Positions 58,674 to 64,000 of a stretch of DNA of 64,000 bases are shown one piece after another (the stretch's first letter is position 1; every line of letters starts with the position of its first letter). The notes below the pieces were generated by a model. It had not been told where the DNA came from. It ran no database searches and saw nothing but the letters and a program-made list of their open reading frames with translations. This stretch comes from Citromicrobium sp. JLT1363 (GTDB lineage: Bacteria > Pseudomonadota > Alphaproteobacteria > Sphingomonadales > Sphingomonadaceae). Position numbers and translations under genes: made by a program. The stretch lies in assembly GCF_000186705.1 (NCBI RefSeq), contig NZ_AEUE01000001.1, forward strand, positions 1 to 64,000, written 5' to 3'.

Positions 58674-58750
<77 letters not shown>

Positions 58751-59106
58751 GCTTTTCCGCCATTTTTGTCCGACCGACCGATTTTGCACTCCGGTGTGTT
58801 TCCGGTGAAATGGGTAGAACATTCGCGAATTATCGCGTCGCCTATGTAGCGGGCGCCGAGCTCAGGGCACATCTGTCCGCTCTCGTCCCCAATCGCGAAC
58901 GATCCCAAGATGTCCGCTATGCGCCCTAATTTTGGCCATTCGCGACGTTCGCGACGTATCCTGAAAGCCGCCGTTCGTTCAGGGTTCACCAAATGGCAAC
59001 AAGGCGCCCTAGTTTCGGTCGTTCATCGGCCCGGCGCGCAATCTCGAAAGCCGCCGTTTGTTCACATCGCGCGATACCCGGCGAGCCTCTCGCACTCAGC
59101 GGGCGG
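58751..59106. other. Gene-free region with decayed direct repeats
   Basis: 356 bases with no reliable gene. It contains two related segments, 58921-58983 and 59004-59066, aligned at a fixed 83-base offset without gaps, identical at GCGCCCT and nearly so at GAAAGCCGCCG. Such non-coding repeats are seen in Erythrobacter-like genomes. The minus-strand reading through the tRNA is a known spurious type. Confidence 0.7.
58921..59066. repeat. Pair of degenerate direct repeats, 83-base period
   Basis: Copy one spans 58921-58983, copy two 59004-59066. Best conserved blocks are GCGCCCT at the left edge and GAAAGCCGCCGTTCGTTCA (copy two differs by one base, T for C) near the right edge. Confidence 0.6.
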
Positions 59107-59625
59107 ATGCAGCTGATGACAACAATGGACGCGATCCAGGCGCAAGGCGGCGCCCGCCTTTGGAAGGCAGACGTCCTCGTGCAATGGGCGGGTCGGCGCA
59201 TCGCGATAGAGATACAGCGCTCCTACCAACACCTTCGCGACTTCGAGCGTCGGCAACAGAGATACCGGGACGCTGACGTGGAGTGCGTCTGGCTGCTGCC
59301 GCGCGACGCCTACCATAGGCTCGCGAAAGCCACGGGAAGGGTCCGCCTTAAAGAGGAATTCGGGGGAAGTTTCCCGCCTTCAGGAAGCATCGGACCATGT
59401 CTGCGGCACCTACCTGTCGCTAGCCTCCATGATCCCGAGAGGGCGGAGATCGCAGGAGCCGGACTTTTCCGAGTCACCCTCGACGCGTGGTGCCGCGCGA
59501 TACTGGAACGGCAATTTCAGTGGTCTGATGGCCTATGGATGATCGGAACAGACCCATCATCGCCGATATCCGGAATACACTCTCCGGTGACGAGGCCAAC
59601 GAACGCGACTGGCGAGCCGCGCTAA
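59107..59625 (+). CDS. CoiA-like nuclease-domain protein
   Basis: 172 residues from ATG 59107. Residues 18-65 read like the nuclease core of competence protein CoiA: WKADVLVQ (D22), then RRIAIEIQRSYQ (E35, Q37), then FERRQQRYRDADVECVWLLP. The upstream zinc-finger and helical parts found in full-length CoiA-like proteins are absent, so this may be a 5'-truncated gene; the frame does stay open back to 58993 but across the degenerate repeat. Low GC for the region. Confidence 0.65.
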   Translation: MQLMTTMDAIQAQGGARLWKADVLVQWAGRRIAIEIQRSYQHLRDFERRQQRYRDADVECVWLLPRDAYHRLAKATGRVRLKEEFGGSFPPSGSIGPCLRHLPVASLHDPERAEIAGAGLFRVTLDAWCRAILERQFQWSDGLWMIGTDPSSPISGIHSPVTRPTNATGEPR

Positions 59626-59655: not shown

Positions 59656-60990
59656 CTAGCGGCTGATCCGGTTGGACATTTCATCACCGACCGCCTCGAT
59701 CCTGCCGGGGTCGACCCGAAGCCCTAGGATGCTGGGCGGATTGTCACGTTCAAACAGGCGCAGGTCCTCGCGCTCGCGCGGGGTCATGCCGATCGCAGAT
59801 CGCTTCACGATGCCAGCCACCGCCTGCTGCCTGATCCAGTAGAATAGCTGATCGATGCGCTGCAGAACGATCGGAAGGTTCCCATCCGGATCCTTCCGCG
59901 ACATGTGCCGATCCATGACGGCCCGGATCGAATGCAGCCGATCCTTGGAGCTTGGATGCGTGGAATCGATGCCTCCAGTCTCACGCTTATGGAGCGACTG
60001 ACAGGCGTCCACCACCTCGATGCCCTTGAGAAAGATGTAGGGAGCGACACTGGTCAGGGCGTTCGAGTATCCGAGGCGCACCGCGGTCTCTGTCGCGAGA
60101 ACCGCTCCTGCGGCGTCCGCCTCGAACTCCGCCTCATGGGAGAAGATCGTCGCCTCGGTATCCCCGAAAGCATCGTCCCTGACGCCCACGCTCTCCGACG
60201 CAGTCTCAAGGTGACCGAGCATAAGATGAGAGAGCTCGTGCGCGATCACGAAGCGCTCCATCGCGACGTTCAGGGGGATGTAGAGTGTCAACGCGCCGGC
60301 TTCAGGGATCCACGGCTCGCTCGCGCGGACGGTGCCCAGGAAGACCATCGCGGCGAACATGTCCTCGATGCGTCGCGCGATGTCGGGGGCTTTGGCGTTC
60401 GAGACGATCCGCCGATCCTCGAAGACGATCGCACCGTCCTTCACCACGCCTCGCGTGAAGCAGGTGGCCACGATCTTGGCGAGCGAAGCGCAGAAGATGA
60501 AGAGCTCGGAATCGACGAACACATGATGATACTCGTCGTCCCAGGTGTTCGCACAGCAGAAGGCGTTGACGAGGCCCGATGGCACCGACGAGACGAGGAG
60601 CTTACGGCCGCCCGGTTCCAGGGCGGCCAGCGCCATCGTCTCCGACACTTGGTCGACGATCTGCTGGATCAGCTCGCGCGTCCGCGGCTCGTCGTATTCA
60701 CCGACCTTGGCGGAGGCGGGCCTCGTGAGCATCGCGTCGAACTCGCCCATCATTTCGCCACCGGCGCCCTCGACCGCGTCGCGCATCTTGCGCAGGTGAT
60801 CGTCGCGGATGTGCAGAGGGGCCGCGTTCGTCTCGCGGGCCAGCAGGCCCGAATACCGCTCCGCGAACCGCGCCTGCACCGATTCCGCCCAGTCACGGGC
60901 TCCCTGCAGCCGAAGCTCCGGGGTCATCTCCTCATCATCGAAACCGTCAGCCAACTCTGCTTTCCAAACTACCGTGCGGATCGGCCCCAT
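59656..60990 (-). CDS. Zinc metallopeptidase of unknown family next to Zorya
   Basis: 444 residues, no signal peptide, no clear membrane helix. The zinc motif HELSHLMLGH starts at residue 251, and EFEADAAG at 288-295 fits the M48-type third ligand (E-x-x-A-D). Upstream of it a Cys pair (FCCANTWDDEYH) and a long N-terminal helical region have no known match. Its role is unknown. Because its promoter lies next to the small ORF and Zorya genes it may be part of the same accessory locus. ATG at 60990; ATG of codon 22 is an alternative. Confidence 0.75.
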   Translation of the reverse strand: MGPIRTVVWKAELADGFDDEEMTPELRLQGARDWAESVQARFAERYSGLLARETNAAPLHIRDDHLRKMRDAVEGAGGEMMGEFDAMLTRPASAKVGEYDEPRTRELIQQIVDQVSETMALAALEPGGRKLLVSSVPSGLVNAFCCANTWDDEYHHVFVDSELFIFCASLAKIVATCFTRGVVKDGAIVFEDRRIVSNAKAPDIARRIEDMFAAMVFLGTVRASEPWIPEAGALTLYIPLNVAMERFVIAHELSHLMLGHLETASESVGVRDDAFGDTEATIFSHEAEFEADAAGAVLATETAVRLGYSNALTSVAPYIFLKGIEVVDACQSLHKRETGGIDSTHPSSKDRLHSIRAVMDRHMSRKDPDGNLPIVLQRIDQLFYWIRQQAVAGIVKRSAIGMTPREREDLRLFERDNPPSILGLRVDPGRIEAVGDEMSNRISR

Positions 60991-61566: not shown

Positions 61567-63492
61567 ATGAAAATTACGGAATGGCTCGGTCACGGGCTCA
61601 TCTATTTCTTCACAGAAATACCAATCATCGGCGATGCGATGGCGGCTTTCTTGGCGATTGTGCTAATCGGCGCTGCGCTCGTGATCGCCTACCATTACAG
61701 GCGCAAATATCACGCCCCACTTGCGGGCGCGATCTATGCGCGCGTTCGCCTTCTCGATGAGATAACGGGCGGCAGCACCGCCGATGTAGACCAGGCGCGC
61801 CTCGAGTTTGCGCGCAGGTTCAATGACATTGATGAGCAAATGATGGAGGCGAACGGTTCGGAGGCGCTGCCTCTGCGTAGAACTTGGGAGGAGTATCGCG
61901 AAACGATTGTCGATCCCTCGGCAGAGGTTCTTCAGAACTCCGCTCGCCCCGAACACTTCTTCGTTAATTTAGGTGACCGCCATCGTGGGTTGAACTGGTT
62001 TGCCAATATATTCATCGCACTGGGACTTCTAATCACTTTCCTGGGCATCATCGCAGCCCTTTCGACACTTGATTTCAGCGGCGGTGTCGACGCGATGCAG
62101 GAGCGGCTCAATGACTTGATGAAGGTCGCTGGAGCAAAGTTCTGGGCTTCGGTGGGAGGCATCGTGGCCTCCATCATTCTTCGTTCCTATGACTACCGGT
62201 TCGGCAAGCGGATCAATGACGGATTATCCATGCTCTGCGACAAGCTCGAGCATGGGATGGCTTATCTGCCACCGCAACGTATTGCGAGCGATCAGCTTGA
62301 ACAACTTAAAGAACAAACGCCGGCACTCCGTGCCTTCTCAGAGCAGCTTGCTGCCGCCCTCGATGGCGCTTTGGAGAAGCAGATGGCTCCCATGATCACC
62401 CATCTCGGATCGATCCAGCAGGGCATAGACAAGATCAGCGGCGGTGGCGGTGAAGCCGTCCGCGACGCGATCGCTTCAAGCGCTGGCGCTGAAATGGCCG
62501 GGCTGGCGGATGCCATTGGCGCGATGACACATTCCATGGCTTCGATGTCTGAACGGATCGAAAAACAGAGCGGTGAAGCTGATCGCCAAATCGAAGAAGC
62601 TGTCAGACGCTTCGGTCAAGCCTCGGAAGAAATGCGTTCAGCGTTTGGGGAGCTTAGTCGTAACTTCGGCGTTGTTGCTGACCGCATGCGGGAAGAAAAT
62701 GAGCAGGCCAGCGAACTTGCGAGGAAGCGGATGGACGAACTGCTGAGCAATCTCGGGAATACACTCGACGAGATGAAATCCGGTCTCGCCTCTGCTGCGA
62801 GCGAGATGGGTGAAGCGTCTGCACAGGCCGCGAATGACGCGGCCCGGATCGGCCAAGAAGCAATGGAAAAATCTTTCTCACAGTTCGTTGAACGGTTCAA
62901 TCAGACCGGCCAACCGCTGGTTGGCAGCATGAAAGATGCAGGTGAAGCCATCTCGTCGTCTGCGGATGGCCTTTCCAGTGCGCAAAGCGCCATCGGAGAT
63001 CACGCGCGTGCGATTGAGCAAGTAGCAGCGCGATCAAGTGATCTCGCTTCTGCTTTCGGAACGGTGGCCAACGACGTCGAGGCGGCTACGGCCCCTGTCC
63101 GTCAGTCGGCAGCTTCCATCGCTGAAGCAGTCAAATCCGTTGAATCTATCGTTTCAAACAATGCGCAGTCGTCCGAAAGTGCACGCGACGAGATGCGCCA
63201 ACTTGCCGCAGCGCTAAACGAGACCGCGACTGCCGCCTCCTCCGCATGGTCTGAATATCGCGCTCGTTTCGAAGACGTGGACAGAGCTCTAGGCGATGCG
63301 ATCGAGAAGATTTCTGACGCTGCGGGCAACCATGCTTCGAACCTCAACGAGCGGGTCGGCCAGATCGACAAAGCGCTGGGCGATGGGGTGGCGCAGCTCG
63401 CCGGCGCTCTCGAACCTCTCACGACCTTGCGGGATACCGTCGAGGAACTTGCTGGCATCCTTGCCAACCAGAACAGGGAAGCCGCTGAATAA
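61567..63492 (+). CDS. zorA: Zorya anti-phage membrane motor protein ZorA
   Basis: 641 residues. Transmembrane helices near 24-43, 144-166 and 186-206 surround a MotA/TolQ/ExbB-like proton-channel unit; the segment SVGGIVASIILRSYDYRFG fits the last helix of that family. A very long cytoplasmic tail (about 230-641), rich in Ala, Glu and Gln with heptad repeats, follows. This is the ZorA plan: a MotA-like stator with a long intracellular tail. It overlaps zorB by one base (TAATG). With ZorB it forms an ion-driven complex that senses phage entry. The tail in ZorA is known to transmit the signal to effector proteins. Confidence 0.88.
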   Translation: MKITEWLGHGLIYFFTEIPIIGDAMAAFLAIVLIGAALVIAYHYRRKYHAPLAGAIYARVRLLDEITGGSTADVDQARLEFARRFNDIDEQMMEANGSEALPLRRTWEEYRETIVDPSAEVLQNSARPEHFFVNLGDRHRGLNWFANIFIALGLLITFLGIIAALSTLDFSGGVDAMQERLNDLMKVAGAKFWASVGGIVASIILRSYDYRFGKRINDGLSMLCDKLEHGMAYLPPQRIASDQLEQLKEQTPALRAFSEQLAAALDGALEKQMAPMITHLGSIQQGIDKISGGGGEAVRDAIASSAGAEMAGLADAIGAMTHSMASMSERIEKQSGEADRQIEEAVRRFGQASEEMRSAFGELSRNFGVVADRMREENEQASELARKRMDELLSNLGNTLDEMKSGLASAASEMGEASAQAANDAARIGQEAMEKSFSQFVERFNQTGQPLVGSMKDAGEAISSSADGLSSAQSAIGDHARAIEQVAARSSDLASAFGTVANDVEAATAPVRQSAASIAEAVKSVESIVSNNAQSSESARDEMRQLAAALNETATAASSAWSEYRARFEDVDRALGDAIEKISDAAGNHASNLNERVGQIDKALGDGVAQLAGALEPLTTLRDTVEELAGILANQNREAAE

Positions 63493-64000
63493 TGGAAGGC
63501 GTGGTCCGCCGGAAGCCGCCTGAGGAGGGCGAAAGCTATTTTATGTCCATGACGGACATGATGGTCGGCCTGCTTCTTATCTTCATTATCCTGTTGGCCT
63601 ACTTTGCCCTCAATCTGCAGACGAAAACCGAGGAGCTGACAGGCGCTAACAGGACCCGCGCCGAGATCCTCAACGATCTGCAGCAGTCCCTGAAAGACCG
63701 AGGGCTCAAAGTGGAAATCGACACCAAGACCGGAGTTCTGAGGCTCCCCGACGACGTCCTGTTCGACAAAGGCCAATGGGAACTGACGGAGAGGGGGCAG
63801 GCTGCCATCAGCAAAGTTGCCAACGCCATGGTCGAAGTCCTGCCTTGTTATACCGCTTCCGATCTTTGCGAAGGCGAACGCTCACCCCACTTGATCGACG
63901 CTGTCTTTGTCGAGGGGCACACGGACTCTGACGTGATGTCTGGCGGCATCAACAACTATGGACTTTCTGTGCGCCGGGCAGAAACAACTTTCACCATGCT
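63492..64000 (+). CDS. zorB: Zorya protein ZorB, MotB-like (5' part, cut by window)
   Basis: The first 169 codons; the gene continues past the edge. A single transmembrane helix (about 19-40) with Asp22 in MTDMMVGLLLIFIIL, the acidic residue that carries protons in MotB/ExbD/TolR proteins. A linker leads to an OmpA-like peptidoglycan-binding domain: VLRLPDDVLFDKG and VEGHTDSDV, then NNYGLSVRRAE. This matches ZorB, the wall-anchored partner of ZorA. Confidence 0.88.
   Translation, partial: MEGVVRRKPPEEGESYFMSMTDMMVGLLLIFIILLAYFALNLQTKTEELTGANRTRAEILNDLQQSLKDRGLKVEIDTKTGVLRLPDDVLFDKGQWELTERGQAAISKVANAMVEVLPCYTASDLCEGERSPHLIDAVFVEGHTDSDVMSGGINNYGLSVRRAETTFTM

Follow-up and report, generated by a model that had tools for sequence, protein, structure and literature searches.

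The window analysed here, the first 64,000 bases of the 518,446-base contig NZ_AEUE01000001.1 of Citromicrobium sp. JLT1363, closes inside the gene cluster of a Zorya-type anti-phage system; the contig numbering continues that of the window. The cluster consists of zorA, zorB, zorC and zorD, all on the plus strand and with neighbours overlapping by 1 to 7 bases:

61567-63492, plus strand: ZorA, 641 amino acids (aa), a MotA/TolQ-like membrane protein with a cytoplasmic tail of about 430 residues; PADLOC PDLC00604, NCBIfam NF033914
63492-64220 (leaving the window at 64000), plus strand: ZorB, 242 aa, MotB-like; PADLOC ZorB1, Pfam OmpA
contig 64217-65623, plus strand: ZorC, 468 aa; PADLOC ZorC1, Pfam EH_Signature
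contig 65617-69429, plus strand: ZorD, 1270 aa, a Snf2 helicase; PADLOC ZorD1
contig 68935-69426, plus strand: MITD1-like domain at the C-terminus of ZorD, a predicted fold

A preliminary description of the window had recognized at its right edge a MotA/TolQ-like protein with a tail of some 400 residues, a one-base overlap with a MotB-like protein combining a membrane aspartate and a wall-binding domain, and in this pair the ZorAB core of Zorya; all of this is borne out. ZorA matches the PADLOC profile ZorA1 over its entire length (PDLC00604, residues 1-641, 1167.8 bits) and the NCBIfam model ZorA_1 (NF033914) with 244 bits against a cut-off of 190; several ZorA models align at approximately residues 139-207, and the remainder after the membrane region amounts to about 430 residues. 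The zorB reading frame begins at 63492, the last base of the zorA frame. ZorB is matched by the ZorB1 models (2e-81 in PADLOC, and 3e-81), by Pfam OmpA above the cut-off (29.7 bits; cut-off 27.2) and by MotB_plug below it (16.3 bits; cut-off 24), and resembles by sequence the type I ZorB structure of Shewanella ANA-3 (PDB 8vvn_B; 2e-22). The membrane aspartate D22 of ZorB is conserved in 70 of 72 aligned rows, and T157 and S195 of ZorA in 67 of 69.

The check proposed in the preliminary description, reading beyond position 64000 with hidden Markov models, yielded ZorC and then ZorD. ZorC matches PADLOC ZorC1 (PDLC00620) with 796 bits and Pfam EH_Signature (PF15611) at 2.1e-36 (126.6 bits; cut-off 27.5). 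ZorD reaches 1888 bits with PADLOC ZorD1 (PDLC00634) and contains the Pfam domains SNF2 (PF00176, 8e-49) and Helicase_C; its residues 326-976 match PDB 8qy7 at 1.3e-91, an entry annotated as a DEAD/DEAH box helicase which we take to be the E. coli ZorD, and K521, D632 and E633 are conserved in 80 of 80 rows. The best PADLOC match is a type I profile for each of the four adjoining genes. Since ZorC and ZorD lie directly 3′ of ZorAB, the system is of type I, and by its sequence the locus represents a complete operon of type I Zorya, a known kind of anti-phage system. Compared to type I Zorya as represented by the Shewanella ANA-3 ZorAB (8vvn) and the helicase 8qy7, the four genes and their order are alike, as are the membrane aspartate, the wall-binding ZorB, the EH-signature ZorC and the Snf2 ZorD; in contrast to the 1080-residue 8qy7, the Citromicrobium ZorD is longer by about 290 residues and ends in a MITD1-like domain that 8qy7 does not have. 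The earlier suggestion that the effectors could be new thus fails for the genes themselves, which are standard zorC and zorD, but retains some merit for this added domain. With the system type settled, interest rests on the unusual ZorD tail.

For comparison, genome contigs were scanned with a nine-row ZorD alignment, and the 79 loci considered here are the best of 518 confirmed ones. The order A-B-C-D on one strand recurs in 67 of them; in 11 the other Zorya genes were incompletely found (seven without ZorA, ZorB and ZorC, L034 without ZorA and ZorB, and L027, L041 and L065 without ZorA), and the remaining locus (L084) has ZorD on the opposite strand. The ZorD tails fall into three classes, short (40 loci), MITD1-like (26) and another domain (13), in shares that are biased towards ZorDs resembling that of Citromicrobium. 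In all 13 members of the third class the extra domain is Pfam Mrr_cat (best 9.6e-22), a profile that does not match the MITD1-like rows; the Citromicrobium ZorD likewise has no Pfam match to Mrr. The helicase core and the place of the extra domain are alike in both classes, whereas the tails differ, and a profile comparison of the two tail alignments gave a probability of 0.13%. An Mrr-like nuclease in ZorD is named in the Zorya literature (PMC11890865) and in the label of PADLOC PDLC00634 (“SWI2/SNF2 helicase, Mrr-like nuclease”), whose positions 1053-1207 cover the MITD1-like domain; for this branch the nuclease part of the label is unfit. The Mrr tail is absent from 66 of the 79 loci, and because 55 of these 66 have the complete ABCD set in order, the Mrr nuclease was not counted as defining type I.

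A quick ZorD tree, built without the tail, holds 76 rows, the Citromicrobium sequence and those of 75 loci (L030, L043, L091 and L092 had sequences too short to include). The nearest ZorDs come from Novosphingobium, Erythrobacter, Tsuneonella, Pontixanthobacter and Qipengyuania. The 25 MITD1-like rows make up one side of a single branch with a Shimodaira-Hasegawa-like approximate likelihood ratio (SH-aLRT) support of 100, which fits a single gain of the tail in this lineage, whose systems are mainly sphingomonad and caulobacterial; the adjoining group on the tree is an 18-row short-tailed clade (joint support 84) that is, by the names shown, alphaproteobacterial except for L055. The Mrr rows are dispersed, with seven changes, at least five of them forced by the starred branches of the tree. 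The C-terminal end of ZorD is thus variable: MITD1-like, Mrr or none. An exchange of the C-terminus among close relatives was also considered, as matches seemed to stop near residue 1000-1040; it was rejected, since in all 14 sequences the same domain follows a variable linker, within which the alignments had broken.

The ZorD C-terminal domain, joined to the Snf2 helicase by a low-complexity linker, has a predicted phospholipase D (PLD) fold of the MITD1/MIT_C kind, with human MITD1 as its best structural match. In human MITD1 (PDB 2ymb, 4a5z), there is no helicase and an N-terminal MIT domain is present instead, which binds ESCRT-III; the protein acts in cytokinesis (PMC9477494). Across the 26 MITD1-like loci, the D-P of a DPY motif, an H-x-R motif and one glycine are invariant, and H-x-R is present in the Citromicrobium ZorD. 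Among 398 genomes of the phylum, four matches to the domain profile were found, one of them in Citromicrobium; the other three were two Snf2 open reading frames (ORFs), 1238 and 1222 aa long, and a weakly matching 79-aa ORF (L021). Against PDB sequences the same profile returned nothing meaningful (best E 0.67). The Pfam profile MIT_C (PF16565) matched seven of 21 domain rows at E values up to 1 (best 1.2e-6), the Citromicrobium sequence not among them.

Elsewhere, MIT_C was found mainly on BrxL. In 200 genomes of the phylum, three proteins exceeded the Pfam cut-off (L101, L102, L103), all of them C-terminal BrxL fusions, and two matches below it were ABC ATPases (L104, L105); in 385 genomes of the class there were three above the cut-off, one a repeat (G407) and the other two without a domain scan (L124, L125). 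Twenty-five plasmid records matched such a domain; among the 20 listed, 15 were annotated as brxL, and one brxL record adjoins pglX and pglZ. A study on BrxL describes a C-terminal HKD-endoDNase in place of the LonP domain in 1030 of 2913 BrxL-bearing taxa, and considers a change from lysine to arginine in it compatible with activity (PMC12839542); this HKD-endoDNase is presumably the same kind of domain as MIT_C and the ZorD tail. In BrxL with C-terminal MIT_C (BREX type 1) as in this ZorD, a domain of the MIT_C kind ends the ATPase of a defence system, and H-x-R, DPY and RG(L/I/V)D-like motifs are common to both; yet the ATPases differ, the three BrxL rows read H-A-R-x4-D and thus keep an aspartate at H+7, and the sequence-profile match is weak. 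A literature search for Zorya together with HKD found nothing, although it did not cover the main structural Zorya paper, so that an earlier mention of the domain is possible; a search for Zorya with phospholipase D returned passages from part of that literature, which are silent on the ZorD tail.

The combined interpretation, to which a probability of about 0.72 is assigned, is that a complete type I Zorya system is located on an island at a tRNA-Arg gene, and that its ZorD ends in a MITD1/MIT_C-like domain with a predicted PLD fold, most likely a DNA-cutting effector. The domain is probably a DNA-cutting or a docking module. It most likely takes the place held in other ZorDs by the Mrr nuclease, as a predicted DNA-cutting effector; because of this position and the company that the domain keeps, nuclease action is favoured, if only slightly above even odds.

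Several results weigh against this interpretation. In sequence searches of the PDB by phmmer, ZorC found nothing meaningful, and ZorA no type I ZorA structure, only the type II entry 8vvi at 5.7e-4. ZorB and ZorD, in a further departure from known type I Zorya, stay under the NCBIfam equivalog cut-offs (42.4 of 400 bits for ZorB1, 364.8 of 1500 bits for ZorD); the branch is therefore divergent from the sequences behind those models. The C-terminal domain of the Citromicrobium ZorD has no Pfam match, the MIT_C profile has none in the Citromicrobium genome, and comparison with the BrxL MIT_C by hhalign was weak (probabilities of 3.5% and 10.8%); for a second model of the domain, MITD1 was absent from the Foldseek top 50. 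Finally, with 40 of 79 ZorDs short-tailed, the domain is dispensable for type I Zorya in general.

The strongest alternative accepts type I Zorya and holds that the MITD1-like domain, rather than cutting, serves as a docking module through which ZorD binds membrane lipid, the ZorA tail or DNA. The best structural match, MITD1, is not a nuclease, and according to the title of a 2012 paper by Hadders et al. its PLD fold binds membranes. The catalytic aspartate of HxR-x4-D (H+7) occurs in only five of the 26 loci; it is missing in the other 21 and in the Citromicrobium ZorD, where a lysine stands at this position, and the long linker would suit a tether. Against docking, the histidine and arginine of H-x-R are invariant in all 26 loci, 13 other ZorDs have an Mrr nuclease at the same position, and the three BrxL MIT_C rows carry HxR-x4-D on a protein whose C-terminal domain is a predicted DNase. 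Docking without cutting accordingly retains roughly a one-in-three standing, behind the DNA-cutting effector.

A sequence of events can be proposed from other Zorya systems. Two studies describe ZorAB as a 5:2 ion-driven motor in which ZorB binds the cell wall and the ZorA tail is rod-like; envelope damage caused by phage is presumed to switch the motor on, whereupon ZorC and ZorD are recruited and incoming DNA is degraded (PMC11890865; PMC12904381). By analogy, the Citromicrobium ZorAB motor would sense envelope damage, the ZorA tail would recruit ZorC and ZorD to phage DNA as it enters, and the tethered PLD-fold domain may act on the DNA held by the ZorD helicase. In a broader and rather speculative version, doubtful on present evidence, ZorD is a modular helicase with an exchangeable C-terminus (none, an Mrr nuclease, or a MITD1-type PLD-fold nuclease in which HxR replaces HxK), the same module serves BrxL in BREX, and the MITD1 domain was first used in bacterial antiviral proteins; if true, the eukaryotic ESCRT factor MITD1 carries a domain with this earlier use. 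A similar kind of module links Zorya to BREX, and the natural variation of the tail allows direct tests of where in ZorD the DNA-cutting activity resides and of whether recruitment by ZorAB is alike across effectors.

The operon lies within a stretch of about 20 kb, delimited by a tRNA gene and a repeat of its 3′ end, that also contains the following features:

58674-58750, plus strand: tRNA-Arg (CCG), identified by ARAGORN; left island border
58993-59625: CoiA nuclease-like gene just after the tRNA (PF06054, 2.5e-8)
59656-60990, minus strand: M48-type metallopeptidase-like gene, divergent from zorA (29.9 bits; Pfam cut-off 20.3)
contig 69426-69764: small non-Zorya ORF of 112 aa, overlapping the zorD stop
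contig 70251-77880: type I restriction-modification locus in which a RhuM-family gene separates hsdM from hsdS
contig 78717-78770: right border repeat, an exact 54-base copy of 58698-58751 (tRNA 3′ end)

DNA similarity to two congeners reaches position 58757, just past the tRNA, and then ends; beyond the border repeat, the next 7.1 kb share just brief, weak stretches of DNA similarity with these two congeners, which do not show an empty site. The G+C content of the island is 0.587, compared to 0.654 for positions 1-58673 of the window. Zorya was most likely brought in as cargo on an island that is, or once was, mobile. That the operon is a decaying remnant on this island is very improbable: the listed island genes included no integrase that was noticed, and the border repeat is a partial tRNA copy, yet the four reading frames are open, ZorA, ZorC and ZorD match almost the full length of their best PADLOC profiles, and the conserved residues are retained. 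The ZorA and ZorB folds are common to MotAB and ExbBD/TolQR; nevertheless, a stator of another kind (flagellar, ExbBD/TolQR) beside an unrelated helicase can practically be dismissed, as MotB_plug and ExbD appear for ZorB only under their cut-offs, while the four adjoining genes all match type I Zorya profiles best and their order recurs throughout most of the related loci. The preliminary description had seen no flagellar or Tol/Exb genes nearby and would have given up Zorya had motility or Tol/Exb partners followed; the downstream genes are zorC and zorD, and no such genes occur among the proteins scanned with Pfam (six and ten), the rest of the genome not having been searched.

Three genes beside the operon were considered as parts of it and rejected. 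The CoiA-like and M48-like genes, tried as Zorya partners, are each present in none of the 79 loci. For the small ORF at 69426-69764, tried as a fifth gene of the system, the 79 loci contain no relative (E 0.001); it is present in three of 149 genomes of the family, the Citromicrobium one included, and the two plasmid relatives (among 10 records) whose surroundings were inspected lie in other contexts. It has no family match under E 0.1; plasmids, among them rhizobial and Vibrio ones, carry its relatives, one of which is near a pair of a UvrD helicase and an AAA ATPase. A scan for promoters and terminators remained at chance level. Within the restriction-modification region, a 209-aa ORF ahead of hsdM shows a weak HsdS-like match, and a YgjP-like gene also lies between the border repeats.
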